A DNA stretch of 64,000 nt from Dactylococcopsis salina PCC 8305. GTDB taxonomy: Bacteria; Cyanobacteriota; Cyanobacteriia; Cyanobacteriales; Rubidibacteraceae. A model generated the notes under the pieces. That model ran no database searches and was not told where the DNA came from. It saw nothing but the letters and a program-made list of their open reading frames with translations. This document shows, one piece after another, positions 3,511 to 55,051 of the stretch (position 1 is the first letter of the stretch; every line of letters begins with the position of its first letter). The DNA is taken from contig NC_019780.1 of the NCBI RefSeq assembly GCF_000317615.1, positions 1-64,000 on the forward strand, in the 5' to 3' direction. Position numbers and translations under genes: made by a program.

Positions 3511-4017
3511 ATGTCTTTTCGTCGTATTTCACTTTTAACCGTTTTATTACTCTCTCTCAGCGCAACCAGCGCTTTTGCAGAAACTTATTCTGATGTTTCC
3601 TCTCCAGAAAAGTCTCAGTTAACTGCCCAACGTTTTGAAAGAGGAGGAAGACGAGGAAACCTGATGGAAGAACTCGATCTCACCGCAACGCAAAGAAATC
3701 AATTGCAAAGTATCCGCAGCGAATATCAACCGCGTTTAATGGAACAGAAAGAAGCGCTTTCTGATGCTTATGAAACCTTACGAGACCTGATGACTGATGA
3801 TGCTTCTACCAGTGAAGTTCGTCGTCAACATCAACAAGTGCAAGCACTTCGTCAAGAAATGTCTGATTTGCGTTTTGAAAGTATGTTAGAAATGCGAGAA
3901 GTTTTAACCCCAGAACAACGAGAAGAGTTTGCCGAGTTAATGGAAGATCGTCGCGCGGGTCGTGGTCGCGGTCGCGGTCGTGGTCGCGGTTTTCGTGGCG
4001 GACGGTTTGATGATTAG
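3511..4017 (+). CDS. Spy/CpxP-like periplasmic protein with Arg-Gly tail
   Basis: The 168-residue protein begins with a signal peptide ending at about residue 23 (LSATSAFA/E). The mature part is helical and contains two LTxxQ-type motifs, LTATQRNQL near residue 57 and LTPEQREEF near residue 131, typical of Spy/CpxP-type periplasmic chaperones and metal/stress sensors. The C-terminus is a low-complexity run of Arg-Gly repeats (about residues 148-163), unusual for this family. It lies 11 bp after the anti-sigma gene, so the three genes form one operon, plausibly an envelope-stress response in which this protein is sensor or effector (inference). Confidence 0.82.
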   Translation: MSFRRISLLTVLLLSLSATSAFAETYSDVSSPEKSQLTAQRFERGGRRGNLMEELDLTATQRNQLQSIRSEYQPRLMEQKEALSDAYETLRDLMTDDASTSEVRRQHQQVQALRQEMSDLRFESMLEMREVLTPEQREEFAELMEDRRAGRGRGRGRGRGFRGGRFDD

Positions 4018-4045
4018 CCCCCTATAATCCCCAATATTTGGGGCT

Positions 4046-4170
4046 TATGTCAGGTTCGCGCTCAAAAGTAGGTTGGGTAGAGACGTTCCATACTTCGACA
4101 AGCTCAGTAACAGGAACGTCTCCACGCGAAACCCAACACCAATTATAAGCAATTGTCTGAAACTGACATT
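4046..4170 (+). repeat. MITE-like nested palindromic repeat (family A), with interrupted core
   Basis: This copy reads TATGTCAGGTTCG at the left and ends GAAACTGACATT, a decayed version of the ATATCAGGTTCG inverted ends seen in the 111-bp copies. The GTTGGGT/ACCCAAC arms are intact, but the central GAGACGTTCC palindrome is split by a 21-23-bp insertion containing CGACAAGCTCAGTAACAGG. It follows the Spy-like gene. Confidence 0.8.
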
Positions 4171-4228
4171 AAAACAGAAAGAGTGATCAGTGATCCCCCC
4201 AACCCTCCTTACTAATATTAATAACTCG

Positions 4229-5527
4229 TTATGTAGATGTTAGTTCAAGAATCCACTTAATCCATTTTTCAACCGTTTGTGCGCGTCTAGATATAGTATT
4301 TTGATTTAGCCCCTCAACATGACCCCTCATTATTTCTATAATTCTTTCTCGCTTTGGTTTTTCACTACTATTTAGATATTCACATAGAATAAGATAAAAA
4401 ACTTTATAAGATAGGATAGTTTTTACTAGCTCAAGATTTCTCCTTTTTGGGTCAAGCTCGATAATTTCTTTACCTCTAGGACTCAAGCTATAGTAAACAC
4501 TACCATTATTTCGTAGTTTTTCAAATAGTCCGAGATATATTCCTGCTGAAATATAATAATCAGTTTGTCTGACATCAAAGGCATAATTTGTTGTAATTTC
4601 TTCCTTCCTTAGCGGACTTTCATTAACATACAACTTTTCTAAAAGGTCAATCACTCTAATGAAAGTATCAGCCTGGGGAAATGTTAAATCTTTATCATCT
4701 TTAAATCTCTGTATATTTTTAATAATTTCTCTAATATCCGACAACTCAATTTCATATTGTCCAATACAATATCTATGAACTGATTCTAGATGAATAGAAT
4801 TATATCGACTGGAATCAAGGAACTTAAAGACATAAAACGTAAAAATATTATTAGAAACAGAAAGAAATATAGGCACTATTTCTTTATTGACTTTTAATTC
4901 CCATGCTCGATACGGATAATAAAGTTGCCTAACAATAAAATCATCAACAGATTGACACTTAGCCTCAATTATTGCAAACTTACTTTCTCCTTCAAATCCA
5001 CCGTCAATTTCACACTGAGCATTTTCTACCCTAATTTGATTAGACCCACCAGTTTTAAGGTTATCAATTTTATAGTCAAAGATTCCTGTTGACATTCTGC
5101 CAAATACCGTAAAATAGGTTTCTTCTCCCAAAATTTCCTCTAGCATACCAGAAAGATGTGCACATAGAATTGCCGATGATTCGGAACTGATTAGATTGGG
5201 GACGATGGTTTTGATATGAGGAGGAAATTGCAGATATTTTACATCAAACGATGCTTTATTTTCAGGAATTGAAAAATAGCTAGAAAATGCTCCAATAACA
5301 TATCTTCCTCTAGAATTAGGTTGTATAGAAAGATTATTGTCTTTGAAAATTTTCGGACGCTGAAACTGATGATCAAATTTGGTCATCAGACGTGCTTCGC
5401 GTTCCTGATTGATTCTTTCAGATGAAATCTGGAAGTAACCATATTTTTCTATGTTCTCTAATATCTTTTCCTCATGAAATAAAGTTTTCCAAGCCTGATC
5501 ATTTTTTTTAAACAGATTTGCACTCAT
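4229..5527 (-). CDS. Type II restriction endonuclease (PD-(D/E)XK type), partner of adjacent methylase
   Basis: This 432-residue protein overlaps the upstream DNA adenine methylase gene by 20 bp, the arrangement of a restriction-modification pair. A PD-(D/E)XK-like catalytic core is visible near residues 174-192: EIDGGFEGESKFAIIEAKCQ, with the acidic residue before the strand and ExK in IIEAK. It is followed by VRQLYYPYR. The C-terminal 150 residues (from about 285) look helical and may be a winged-helix DNA-recognition region (inference). The specificity cannot be read from the sequence. The methylase class would allow GATC, but this is not shown. Base composition is more AT-rich than the flanking genes, suggesting transfer. 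Confidence 0.8.
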   Translation of the reverse strand: MSANLFKKNDQAWKTLFHEEKILENIEKYGYFQISSERINQEREARLMTKFDHQFQRPKIFKDNNLSIQPNSRGRYVIGAFSSYFSIPENKASFDVKYLQFPPHIKTIVPNLISSESSAILCAHLSGMLEEILGEETYFTVFGRMSTGIFDYKIDNLKTGGSNQIRVENAQCEIDGGFEGESKFAIIEAKCQSVDDFIVRQLYYPYRAWELKVNKEIVPIFLSVSNNIFTFYVFKFLDSSRYNSIHLESVHRYCIGQYEIELSDIREIIKNIQRFKDDKDLTFPQADTFIRVIDLLEKLYVNESPLRKEEITTNYAFDVRQTDYYISAGIYLGLFEKLRNNGSVYYSLSPRGKEIIELDPKRRNLELVKTILSYKVFYLILCEYLNSSEKPKRERIIEIMRGHVEGLNQNTISRRAQTVEKWIKWILELTST

Positions 5528-50530: not shown

Positions 50531-50965
50531 ATGGCACTCGCAATTGGTACAAAAGCACCCGATTTTACAACGAAAGATAGTGACGGAAATACCGTTTCTC
50601 TTTCAGATTTTAAGGGGAAAATGGTTGTTCTCTATTTTTATCCTAAAGATGACACTCCCGGTTGTACGAAAGAAGCAGAAGGTTTCCGCGATAACTACCA
50701 AAAATATCAAGATCAAGAAATGGTGGTTTTAGGAGTCAGTCGGGATGATGAAGCCTCTCACAAAATGTTTAAAGAGAAGTATGGCTTACCTTTTACCCTC
50801 TTAGCGGATGTGGATGGTAGTATTACCAAAGCCTATGATGCTGATGGGGGTGCGGTTTCCAAGCGTATTACCTATGTTATTGATGGTGACGGAAACATTA
50901 GTTATGTTGACAGCAATGTTAATACTAGCACCCATGCTGATGATGTTTTGAATGCAGTTCAATAA
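50531..50965 (+). CDS. bcp: Thioredoxin-dependent peroxiredoxin Q (BCP)
   Basis: The 144-residue protein reduces hydroperoxides using thioredoxin. The peroxidatic Cys is in DDTPGCTKEAEGFRD (about residue 45). In many PrxQ proteins a resolving Cys sits five residues later (CTxEAC); here that position is Glu, so this is a one-Cys or atypical form. The rest of the fold is complete. Confidence 0.94.
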   Translation: MALAIGTKAPDFTTKDSDGNTVSLSDFKGKMVVLYFYPKDDTPGCTKEAEGFRDNYQKYQDQEMVVLGVSRDDEASHKMFKEKYGLPFTLLADVDGSITKAYDADGGAVSKRITYVIDGDGNISYVDSNVNTSTHADDVLNAVQ

Positions 50966-50986
50966 TCAATAAATCATTCAATGTAG

Positions 50987-51017
50987 AGACGTTCCATGGC
51001 GGGAACGTCTTTTTTAT
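50987..51017 (+). terminator. Bcp terminator made from a family-A core hairpin
   Basis: AGACGTTCC and GGAACGTCT with a loop ATGGCG form a stem immediately followed by TTTTTTA. It is the same palindrome as in the MITE-like repeats, with a changed loop, now in terminator position 22 bp after bcp. Confidence 0.75.
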
Positions 51018-51117
51018 CTGGGAAACCCCTAGGAGTAGAAGTGGTGACTATTTCCCCTGCTTGATCTACGGGATTATTAGGACAAAATTTCTTTGGTCGT
51101 TATGATGTGGTGATTAA
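51014..51117 (+). pseudogene. 5' exon fragment of a retropepsin-like aspartic protease gene
   Basis: In one frame the DNA reads LSGKPLGVEVVTISPA, a TGA (51062-51064), then STGLLGQNFFGRYDVVI up to the intron. Joining 51117 to 53834 recreates codon AAA and continues KENVVEFRDR then TGA at 53862-53864. The combined GLLGQNFFGRYDV...KENVVEF is, as I recall it, the C-terminal segment of cyanobacterial clan-AA aspartic proteases. The catalytic Asp-Thr/Ser-Gly region is absent and a stop interrupts the frame, so this is a gene remnant. Confidence 0.6.
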
Positions 51118-51842
51118 GTGCGATTCGTTTCTGGTGAAATCGCATCGTAGTTCTCTTGAACTGCGGAGAGTATAAGCCAGAGCAGGGAGGAAATCCATCT
51201 TGGACTTTATATCCTTCGATGGTTACAGAACCTTGACAACGTGATATCCATGATGGTGAAATACCCCTGAGTATTACGAAATGTATAGAAAAGAGGGTGG
51301 GAATTACCGAACAATGAATGTAGGGAAAACCGAACATTAAATCCATCTCTCTTAGGATGTAAGAGGACAGCGTAACCCTTATCTAAAGAGTTGACTACTT
51401 GAGGATAAAGCAGGGTTAAATGGGATCACTGCTGGAAGCCTAATCTGGTAAATTCCCTAGCAAGAGGCTATGTCTAGTCAACGAACTTACGTCCGAACCA
51501 TCGTTATTACGACCCTGCGTAAAGGCTGTCGCAGGGAGCGAAATATGCTCAACACAAGAGGATATAAGTTTTTAGTAGCTTATATCACATTCCCAAATTT
51601 GTGCGGTGGATAGTAAGGGACTAAGGTCTCAATCAAATGGATATCAGGAACGAAGTAACCCTCGTTCATACTCTTGGGAAGGTCGATTTCCAAGTAGTCT
51701 GTCGGGATGCAATCTCCGATTATCTTAATCGGGTTGAGCGAGGGCAGGATTGGATAAGAAGCGAACGCCTTCTGTAACAGGAAGGATATGCTGACGTATC
51801 CACTTTCGATTACGAAGAAAATGAAATTAAGTAGAGGGAATC

Positions 51843-53750
51843 ATGGACTTACAAAAGTATGAAAGTAATGCGGCGATTAAGACCTTTCTTAATTATCCAT
51901 TTTGGTTAAGTTTCGGATTACTCCTCATGGAGAAAACGGAATGGAGCGATATGGATTGGAAACAGGTTGAAATCAATGTGTTTAAACTCCAAAAACGGAT
52001 TTTTCGAGCTTCTCAAAGTGGTGACGTGGCTAAAGTTCACAAACTCCAGAGATTATTGTTGCGGTCTTGGTGCGCCAAACTCTTTGCAGTACGACGCATT
52101 TCGCAGGATAACCAGGGTAAGAATACTGCTGGGATAGATGGTGTAAAAACCCTAAGTCCTAAGCAAAGATTAAACCTTGCTGAAAACCTAACTCTTACAG
52201 GGAAGGGTAAATCCTTAAGACGGGTCTGGATTCCAAAACCAGGTAAAGCGGAAAAACGCGGCTTGGGTATTCCAGTAATGGAAGACCGTGCGAGGCAAGC
52301 ACTTCTTAAACTGGCTTTAGAGCCAGAGTGGGAGGCAAAATTTGAGCCAAATTCGTACGGATTCAGACCAGGACGCTCTTGCCATGATGCGGGAGAAGCA
52401 ATTTTTGATGCAATTCGGTACAAGCCTAAATGGGTGTTAGATGCCGATATCTCGAAATGCTTCGACCGCATAAATCACGACGCTCTCTTACAAAAATTGA
52501 ATACAACTCCGACTATTGCTCGACAAATTCGAGCTTGGCTAAAGTCGGGGGTCTTGGATAAAGGTGATTGGATGCCAACAAATGAGGGAACACCACAAGG
52601 AGGGGTGATAAGTCCTCTATTGGCAAACATTGCTCTGCATGGACTTGAGGAGTACATAAAACAATGGGCTGAAACTTGGAAAGGTAGAAAAGAACGCAAT
52701 CGTTCTTCCATCTCCTTAATCAGGTACGCAGATGACTTCGTTGTTCTCCATAAGGATAAATCCACCATCCAACAAGCGAAAACGCTAATTGAACAGTGGT
52801 TACATGGCTTAGGCTTAGAAATTAGCGAGAGCAAGACGAGAATTTGTCATACAGTTATGGATTCCGAAGAAGAGAAAGCAGGTTTTGATTTCTTAGGATG
52901 GAATATCCGTCAACATGAAATCGGAAAAAACCATTCAGGAAAAAGTACAAATGGCAAATTACTTGGATTCAAAACAATAATCAAACCTAGCGACAAAAGT
53001 ATCAAAACTCACTATGAAAAGATTGTCTCAGTGTTGGATTCAATGAAAGGTAAATCCCAAGAGGTAATCATTGATAGGCTAAATCCCATAATCACGGGAT
53101 GGTGCAACTACCACAAAACAGTCTGCTCAAAAGAAGTATTTCACCATCTAGACCATCTAGTGTGGAATAAACTACGTCGCTGGATGAAAAGTCGTCACTC
53201 TAATAAAACTCTCAAATGGTGCATAGATAAATACTTTCATTTGACTAAGGAGAAAGATTTAAAGGGAGAGAAAAGGGTTAATAAATGGGTCTTTTCAACT
53301 CCTTCTGATATACCAAATTCTTCTGTTGCGGGCAAGCATGAATTACGCAAGCACGCATGGACTCAAATTGAAAGACATATAAAAATTGAGGGTTCGAGGT
53401 CTCCTTACGATGGAGATTGGCGGTATTGGAGTAAACGTCGGGGTGAATATCCTGGCACACCAAAACGGGTTGCTACTCTGATGAAGCGTCAGAAAGGCAA
53501 ATGCGCTCGTTGTGAACTTTACGTTAAGGATGAAGATGTAATGGAGGTTGACCACATCGTCCCTAAAGCTGAAGGGGGCAAAGACCATTACAAGAACTTA
53601 CAATTACTTCATCGTCATTGTCACCATCAGAAAACTGCCGAAGACCGACAACGACAAATGAACAACAAGGGGAAAAAGAAAGCCCAAAAGAAAACAAAGA
53701 AAGGTCGTAAATCGGAAACTAGACAGGGAAGTGCTGTTAATACAGCGTAG
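51843..53750 (+). CDS. ltrA: Group II intron reverse transcriptase/maturase (LtrA-type) with HNH endonuclease
   Basis: The 635-residue intron-encoded protein promotes splicing and retrohoming. The reverse-transcriptase domain spans about 90-350, with catalytic RYADDFVVL near 296 and GTPQGGVISPLLANI near 249. A maturase (X) domain lies at about 400-500 (IITGWCNYHKTVCSKEVFHHLD). The C-terminal HNH nuclease has CARCELYVKDEDVMEVDHI and LLHRHCHHQKT. AGAGGG precedes the ATG at 51843; an internal ATG at 51927 (MEKTEWSDMDWKQVE) is the more conserved beginning and is an alternative start. The frame is intact. Confidence 0.95.
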   Translation: MDLQKYESNAAIKTFLNYPFWLSFGLLLMEKTEWSDMDWKQVEINVFKLQKRIFRASQSGDVAKVHKLQRLLLRSWCAKLFAVRRISQDNQGKNTAGIDGVKTLSPKQRLNLAENLTLTGKGKSLRRVWIPKPGKAEKRGLGIPVMEDRARQALLKLALEPEWEAKFEPNSYGFRPGRSCHDAGEAIFDAIRYKPKWVLDADISKCFDRINHDALLQKLNTTPTIARQIRAWLKSGVLDKGDWMPTNEGTPQGGVISPLLANIALHGLEEYIKQWAETWKGRKERNRSSISLIRYADDFVVLHKDKSTIQQAKTLIEQWLHGLGLEISESKTRICHTVMDSEEEKAGFDFLGWNIRQHEIGKNHSGKSTNGKLLGFKTIIKPSDKSIKTHYEKIVSVLDSMKGKSQEVIIDRLNPIITGWCNYHKTVCSKEVFHHLDHLVWNKLRRWMKSRHSNKTLKWCIDKYFHLTKEKDLKGEKRVNKWVFSTPSDIPNSSVAGKHELRKHAWTQIERHIKIEGSRSPYDGDWRYWSKRRGEYPGTPKRVATLMKRQKGKCARCELYVKDEDVMEVDHIVPKAEGGKDHYKNLQLLHRHCHHQKTAEDRQRQMNNKGKKKAQKKTKKGRKSETRQGSAVNTA

Positions 53751-53759
53751 TTGGGAGAG

Positions 53760-53793
53760 GAGCGGTGTGATGGGAAACTATCACGCACCGTTC
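53760..53793 (+). ncRNA. Group II intron domain V
   Basis: A 34-nt hairpin with the catalytic AGC at positions 2-4, lower stem GAGCGGTGT/GCACCGTTC, a two-nucleotide bulge (AC), a 5-bp upper stem and a GAAA tetraloop. Confidence 0.92.
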
Positions 53794-53920
53794 TGAAGCC
53801 GAGTCAGGAGGGCGACCTTCTGGCTTAGGTAACAGAAAACGTTGTGGAATTTCGCGATCGATGATCACGGAAAAAACTTGATAAAATAGACTATTCTAAA
53901 CCTTATTTATTAAACCTGAT

Positions 53921-55051
53921 ATGGGTAGCATCTTCGGACAACTTTTTCGGATTAGTACCTTTGGCGAATCTCACGGCGGTGGTGTGGGTGTCATTATTGA
54001 TGGTTGTCCCCCGCAATTACCGATTTCCACTGAAGAAATCCAAGTCGAATTAGATCGGCGCCGCCCTGGACAAAGTAAAATTACGACCCCTCGTAAAGAA
54101 ACCGATACTTGTCAAATCCTCTCAGGAGTCTTTCAAGGGAAAACGACGGGTACACCGATTACGATTTTAGTTCCTAATAAAGACACCCGTCCTCAAGATT
54201 ACAGCGAAATGGCGACGACTTATCGCCCTTCCCATGGAGATGCCACTTATGATGCTAAATATGGATTTCGCAATTGGCAAGGGGGCGGCCGATCATCGGC
54301 ACGAGAAACCATTGGACGAGTTGCTGCGGGGGCGATCGCGAAAAAGATTTTACATCAATTGGCTGCGGTTGAAATTGTTGGTTATGTGAAACGGATCAAA
54401 GATTTAGAAGCGATCGTAGATACGGATATGGTGACTCGTGAACAAGTGGAAAGTAATATTGTTCGCTGTCCTGATCCAGAATGCGCTCAACAGATGATCG
54501 ATCGCATCGATCAAATTCGACGAGAAAAGGATTCGATCGGTGGCGTTGTCGAATGTGTGGTGAGAAATGTTCCCAAAGGACTCGGTGAGCCAGTTTTTGA
54601 TAAATTAGAGGCAGATTTCGCCAAAGGGATCATGTCGCTTCCCGCGAGTAAGGGTTTTGAAATTGGTTCTGGCTTTTCGGGAACGCTACTCAAGGGGAGT
54701 GAACACAATGATCCGTTTTATACCGATGAAACGGGAAACATTCGCACCCGTAGCAATTATTCTGGTGGGATACAAGGGGGGTTAAGTAATGGCGAGAATA
54801 TCATTCTCCGTGCTGCATTTAAGCCCACTTCTACCATTGGTAAAGCCCAAGAAACGGTAACTCGCACGGGTGAAGCCACAGAATTGTCGGCAAAAGGACG
54901 ACATGATCCTTGTGTACTTCCTCGCGCCGTGCCGATGGTAGAGGCAATGGTAGCACTGGTGTTATGTGATCACCTCCTGCGCGATCGCGCTCAATGTCAC
55001 CTGTTCCATGACAGTGACCAATGTAGAGACGTTCCATGGAACGTCTCTTAA
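53921..55051 (+). CDS. aroC: Chorismate synthase
   Basis: AroC converts EPSP to chorismate, the last shared step of aromatic amino-acid synthesis, using reduced FMN. The 376-residue product has [20 protein letters not shown] (about 10-29), [20 protein letters not shown] near 122 and [21 protein letters not shown] near 320. After the natural end ([11 protein letters not shown]) the frame runs on through a CAGTGAC unit and the 22-nt repeat core (coding RDVPWNVS) to TAA. The last 13-15 residues are repeat-derived. It converges on glcD with a 4-bp overlap. Confidence 0.97.
55026..55047. repeat. Isolated 22-nt core palindrome inside the aroC/glcD junction
   Basis: A perfect copy of the family-A core without the GTTGGGT arms. 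The adjoining TTAA (55048-55051) contains the stop codons of both convergent genes, and the hairpin could end transcription on both strands. Confidence 0.85.

Follow-up and report, generated by a model that had tools for sequence, protein, structure and literature searches.

A group II intron of a mobile family within a decayed aspartic protease gene of Dactylococcopsis salina PCC 8305

A short distance upstream of aroC in Dactylococcopsis salina PCC 8305, a group II intron with an intact maturase lies within a gene that is itself broken. This raises the question of where exactly the intron begins and ends, what the interrupted gene once was, and whether that gene decayed before or after the insertion. 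The locus was analysed within a window of 64,000 nt (the whole stretch of DNA under study, in which all features described here lie on the forward strand), and was compared with the genome at large (one contig of 3,781,008 bases) and with related genomes. Our preferred reading, to which we assign a probability of roughly 0.93, is that a mobile group IIB intron from an amplified family retrohomed into a protease gene that was truncated earlier or later, where it has been tolerated, and has been kept intact by selection at the level of the family.

The element at 51118–53833 is an ORF-bearing group IIB intron of 2716 bp. It opens with GTGCG and closes with GGTAAC, in line with 5′ GUGYG and 3′ AY termini, and contains domain V (53760–53793), followed by domain VI and the 3′ end (53795–53833), both recognised through an Rfam match to RF00029 at 53758–53828 (49.7 bits; gathering score 40). 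From the usual arrangement in group II introns, the A at 53827 is presumed to be the branch point. Three guides are present, EBS2 (51507–51511), EBS1 (51572–51577), the flanks of which form a hairpin-like stem by eye, and the single base EBS3 (51611), which is complementary to the base that opens the 3′ exon; their partners IBS2 and IBS1 are found at 51106–51110 and 51112–51117, respectively. The intron-encoded protein (IEP; 51843–53750) is 635 aa in length and combines a reverse transcriptase with a maturase domain and an HNH endonuclease, as seen in matches to RVT_1, RVT_N, GIIM and HNH (PF00078, PF08388 and PF01844) and in a score of 340.6 bits against TIGR04416 (cut-off 300). Terminal motifs, domain V, the EBS1–IBS1, EBS2–IBS2 and EBS3–IBS3 pairings and the IEP domains are thus all those of a group IIB intron with an ORF, and the intact maturase, domain V and EBS1/IBS1 pairing reported in a first-pass annotation of this DNA are all present. 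The best solved structural relative of the IEP is the maturase reverse transcriptase of PDB 6me0 (E-value 1.9e-110), which aligns over residues 30–604, although it is shorter (562 residues) and well diverged in sequence. Together with the expansion of CL-type (chloroplast-like) introns in cyanobacteria, as described in the available part of one survey (PMC8919778), this similarity makes a CL-type class a candidate for the IEP. When contigs from 300 relatives, possibly excluding the organism's own genome, were scanned with the IEP, the best 80 matches had identities of 51–58 %.

Excision of 51118–53833 joins ATT-AA to A-GAA and generates the frame RYDVVI-K-ENVVEFRDR, terminated by a stop codon at 53862–53864; the complete joined open frame reads RYDVVIKENVVEFRDR before this stop. 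The restored frame RYDVVI/KENVVEFRDR had been predicted from the locus by itself, as had the placement of the insertion site to the base, and both predictions are upheld: the former by the joined sequence, and the latter by empty sites in two relatives and by 16 other copies of the intron. The intron-free site is continuous across the junction in two assemblies, G001 (GTCATTAA followed by AGAGG) and G005 (GTAATTAA followed by AGAGA). These empty sites provide the most direct support for the ends of the window intron, which are also supported by the 16 other two-ended copies and by covariation between guides and targets. A search for insertions at the same site, using a degenerate junction pattern against 388 genomes (a sample of the order), produced matches only in the own genome and in G031, and the sequence following the G031 match is unlike the window intron. 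This pattern is blind to insertions with other codons, and its reversed form, used as a control, matched in two genomes.

The intron belongs to a large family within its own genome, where the group II domain V family is matched 35 times and the DNA of the window intron at least 52 times, many of the latter matches being short pieces (40 of 62 candidates scored). Twenty stretches were fetched, and 17 of these, the window copy included, bear both ends of the family; the other three comprise a fragment (L026) and another, related intron (L027 and L028). All 17 start with GTGCGA and end with AAC. The 5′ end of L021 was set by eye, and ten copies terminate in GGTTAAC whereas the other seven have GGTAAC, which is shorter by one base, so that the alignment of the ten to the window intron halts at base 2713. 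For these ten, the 3′ end was placed at AAC, one base past the printed GGTTAA, a choice that is borne out by the uninterrupted L027, which equals the joined flanks of L015–L017 at the junction. For the GGTAAC class, to which the window copy belongs, the empty sites in G001 and G005 support the corresponding choice. The same GGTAAC terminus is found in seven of nine stretches fetched from another assembly of the genus (G003), in each case followed by differing exons, which begin with TCTT in four of the seven; intron homologues thus share their end points, both in the own genome and in G003.

Sequence identities across the 17 copies span 77 to 100 %, with three groups of perfectly identical introns occurring at like sites (L013 and L014; L015, L016 and L017; L018 and L019). 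The flanks are more diverged than these identical introns, as the tnpB flanks of L013 and L014 are approximately 85 % alike, and the outer introns surrounding L016 and L015/L017 approximately 90 %. Identical introns in diverged flanks are, judging by sequence, the mark of recent retrohoming. A stop-free frame of at least 625 codons is retained in 16 of the 17 copies, and that of L025 extends to 404. The intron ORF of L025 is interrupted by a second, family-derived copy of a reverse transcriptase-coding piece, at approximately 3888–4827 of the oriented stretch. The closest copy to that of the window is L010, with 91.5 % identity and a dS of 0.27 for the IEP. Comparison of the window IEP with 11 other distinct ORFs (identical copies being counted once, and the broken ORF of L025 excluded) gave dN/dS values of 0.152–0.208 in all 11 cases, which points to purifying selection on the IEP at the level of the family; the window IEP itself is intact. 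Weighing somewhat against the preferred reading, parsimony places 16 replacement and eight silent changes on the window copy's own branch, and 13 and 11, respectively, on that of L010, with 81 sites ambiguous; these counts alone are no proof of constraint, and are too few to test relaxation.

With G–U pairs allowed, EBS1 of the window intron pairs with IBS1 at five of six positions, the mismatch being at IBS1 position −6, and EBS2 pairs with IBS2 at five of five. In a blind scan of intron columns against exon offsets, EBS1 (intron bases 455–460) ranks first, with EBS2 (390–394) lower down. Both guides covary with their targets across 13 insertion-site lineages, for which one copy per group of identical introns was used and G–U was counted as a pair. 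For EBS1–IBS1, 64 of 78 positions pair, where shuffling gives 35.4 on average (sd 4.5); the EBS2–IBS2 count is 48 of 65, with a shuffled average of 31.6 (sd 3.4). Neither value was reached in 20000 shuffles. When 16 rows are used, near-duplicates among them, the counts are 77/96 and 60/80, respectively, and these are reached in none of 5000 shuffles. EBS3 (intron position 494) complements exon base +1 in 15 of the 17 copies, the exceptions being L022, where an inserted base renders the column ambiguous, and L025, which is mismatched. Its lead per lineage is slim, at 11 of 13 compared with 10 for the next best of all columns; the EBS3 assignment is therefore the weakest of the three and rests partly on knowledge of subclass IIB. 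These EBS3 figures and the mismatch at −6 count against the preferred reading. From the anatomy, pairing and empty sites, we infer a retrohoming reaction in which the excised intron RNA, together with its own reverse transcriptase, would recognise TGTGG-T-GATTAA^A via EBS2, EBS1 and EBS3, and would then reverse-splice into it.

With regard to the host gene, the sequences flanking the intron represent the final 35 or so codons of a gene for a clan AA aspartic protease. The 5′ part of the remnant occupies 51041–51117 by homology (by eye, perhaps back to approximately 51020), and the 3′ part, including the stop codon, occupies 53834–53864, its first base serving as IBS3. An intact counterpart, coding for 176 residues, lies directly 5′ of aroC in G001, which is of the same genus. 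This protein retrieves the remnant in the own genome with an E-value of 2.2e-7 and carries the aspartic protease domains PF13975 and PF13650, albeit falling below the NCBIfam cut-off of TIGR02281. The aspartic protease identity that had been assigned to the fragment is thus corroborated, and the fragment does have homologues, including an intact gene. The order protease–aroC recurs in G011, from another family, and G002 harbours an intact protease gene approximately 0.28 Mb away from aroC. That the flanking frame might instead be a chance open stretch, and not a protease at all, could be argued from its length of only some 35 codons and from the failure of NCBIfam to return a protease match for the 41-residue fragment (the sole match, with an E-value of 0.063, is irrelevant). 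In a search of 60 relatives, this fragment finds a match at E ≤ 1 in 50, many weak ones surely being chance. The similarity to the intact G001 gene and the shared position beside aroC in G001 and G011 speak so strongly against a chance frame that we regard it as extremely improbable.

The flanking gene had also been described as already broken, and so it proves. A TGA at 51062–51064 falls within the remnant frame, homology begins only at around residue 140 of 176, leaving approximately 139 residues missing, and the window lacks any counterpart of the catalytic D-T-G segment found in the intact G001 and G002 proteins (D-T-G-A in the former). On this evidence the piece is best described as a protease remnant, and not a protease. 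Sequencing error was considered as a sole cause of the decay, and rejected, because a false TGA call would still leave the absence of the greater part of the gene unexplained. Elsewhere in the genus, G005 possesses its own broken protease copy, with different lesions and no intron, and the gene was not found at an E-value of 0.01 in G003 (a draft of approximately 140 contigs) or in G004 (85 % complete). In a tree of aroC, G005 groups with the intact G001, albeit with support of 87/92, which is under the mark for strong support, and the window genome, G002 and G003 are unresolved beside them. If that fork holds, the losses in the window genome and in G005 would be independent.

The surroundings of the remnant are altered as well. 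Upstream lies an AhpC/TSA (peroxiredoxin) gene (50531–50965), followed by a palindrome (50985–51012) at the 5′ edge of the remnant, terminator-like by consensus match only, that belongs to the dispersed motif GTAGAGACGTTCCATGG. This palindromic motif has 16 matches (with up to three mismatches) at nine places in the window (4077, 17424, 20161, 22501, 25495, 38503, 49997, 50983 and 55023), against 0.08 expected, and terminator-like sites in the region number seven against 3.5 expected. In G001, a different ORF on the opposite strand precedes the protease and the peroxiredoxin gene is approximately 2 Mb off; the remnant therefore begins at a break of gene order. To account for this observed break, we infer that the protease gene beside aroC lost its first three quarters by a rearrangement or deletion edging the palindrome at 50985–51012, and that the last 35 or so codons would have remained to house the intron. 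The intron would be tolerated there because nothing depends on the gene, and would stay intact because the family as a whole appears, from the dN/dS values, to be selected for mobility and splicing.

The settings of the 17 copies bear upon the order of events. One lies in pstA, in frame, two in tnpB, three in other introns and one in the protease remnant, and the remaining ten show no ATG-started frame of at least 80 codons over the junction (among 11 copies so examined, the one crossing frame was that of pstA). The pstA copy, L024 (1233447–1236231 of the own genome), leads to the additional observation that phosphate transport may depend on its splicing. Removal of L013 or L014 at its mapped ends leaves the tnpB halves one base out of frame, with PF01385 in the downstream half, a further point against the preferred reading. 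Certain copies are located directly 5′ of genes in the sense direction, namely L011 before fbp (start at +58) and L012 before mtnP (+19), as is the window copy before aroC (chorismate synthase, 53921–55051), the start codon of which is 88 bases past the last intron base. Two others, L020 and L025, precede iscB-like ORFs, whose start codons lie at +154 and +114, respectively, a position expected of a guide RNA gene. The genome contains 15 matches to HEARO RNA (RF02033) at an E-value of 0.01, 11 of which are above the family cut-off. A HEARO guide RNA as the interrupted host of L020 and L025 found no support from Rfam, which gave no match on either locus at an E-value of 0.05, nor from a profile of 13 own-genome HEARO stretches, which failed to match the joined flanks at an E-value of 10, though BLAST gave short matches (29–51 bases) between these flanks and three of the stretches.

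Because of this base rate of settings, insertion into an already useless gene is slightly favoured. Ten of the other 16 copies lie outside any such frame and three more within other introns, and the protease gene is evidently dispensable in the genus, being broken in the window and G005 and not detected in G003 and G004. Entry after the truncation is accordingly given about an even chance; the IEP dS to the nearest copy (0.27) bounds just one of two insertions, and thus provides no dated event for this order. The converse, in which the protease gene was whole and functional when the intron arrived, the insertion was tolerated by virtue of splicing, and decay followed later, is a serious contender that we hold at somewhat less than even odds. 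The guides of the window intron pair with the intact G001 site just as with that of the window (EBS1 5/6 and EBS2 5/5), but they pair equally well with the dead site of G005. The frame is open across the junction, and L024 sits in frame within pstA, a plausible working gene; however, only three of the 17 copies are within another recognisable protein gene, and in both tnpB cases the frame is unrestored. Constraint on the protease persisted through much of the species divergence, as the remnant differs from G001 by approximately 17 silent and six replacement changes across 34 codons. This pattern resembles that of a long-constrained gene, and the loss therefore looks recent relative to the species split (aroC dS from the window genome to four relatives ranges from 1.16 to 1.98). 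Against this, G005 lost the gene in the absence of any intron, although its placement as sister to G001 is subject to the support given above; the intron is therefore not needed to explain the decay. A further proposal, which we consider unlikely, is that the dead gene serves as a refuge, in which the intron, costless to its host, would persist by lateral spread into the protease alleles of relatives, and would be held adapted to live copies since its guides match the conserved RYDVVIK codons of the intact protease in a relative. In a variant of this proposal, the intron might now form part of the aroC leader, as the fbp and mtnP copies might for those genes.

The three nested copies, L015, L016 and L017 (own genome 3363493, 1553287 and 1021874, respectively), are identical over 2659 bp and each lies approximately 221 nt into an outer group II intron. 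In the 222 nt that precede the insertion, the outer introns of L015 and L017 are 100 % alike, and that of L016 is approximately 90 % alike to either, whilst the outer 5′ flanks differ. The outer intron is uninterrupted in L027 and L028, the former having the exact empty site. These structures look like twintrons that would have formed by homing into diverged outer introns.

Comparison with described systems indicates that the situation is an ordinary one for group II introns, a decayed aspartic protease gene being, as the evidence supports, the host in this instance. A close parallel to the window intron is provided by the group IIB1 introns of Thermosynechococcus elongatus, which, in the portion of Mohr et al. 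(2010; PMC2882425) available, fall into families F1–F6, distinguished by EBS1/2/3, each with its own target; some of these introns lie in intergenic DNA, and others have entered an IS200-type element, a transporter pseudogene or further introns. Both sets have an RT, maturase and En ORF, many copies per cyanobacterial genome and targets defined by their EBS sequences. As far as that portion extends, the present family differs in that 16 of the 17 copies examined keep the long ORF, with identities of 77 to 100 %, in that the host remnant is an aspartic protease, and in that nesting occurs approximately 221 nt into the outer intron rather than between two start codons of the outer ORF. L015–L017, as copies other than the window element, also resemble the Trichodesmium twintron T.e.I7/T.e.I8, where, according to the accessible text of PMC4649490, the host intron is a distant relative of the inner one, which it holds within its domain I; a location in domain I is suggested here by position only, and the Trichodesmium example differs in that it interrupts a protein gene and its splicing has been shown. 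The survey mentioned above (PMC8919778), in its available part, likewise notes that introns are frequently nested within other mobile elements or located in intergenic regions. The literature searched yielded no paper linking Dactylococcopsis salina or Halothece with a group II intron.

At the protease locus, an intron whose machinery is intact occupies a host gene that has lost its importance; the three identical nested introns are of more interest than this copy. The case, with its well-defined ends, contributes to an understanding of the multiplication of group II introns in cyanobacteria: in one genome, 13 insertion-site lineages have guides that have each changed to suit their own target, and three sets of copies at like sites are identical throughout, so that the retargeting of guides can be traced from sequence alone.
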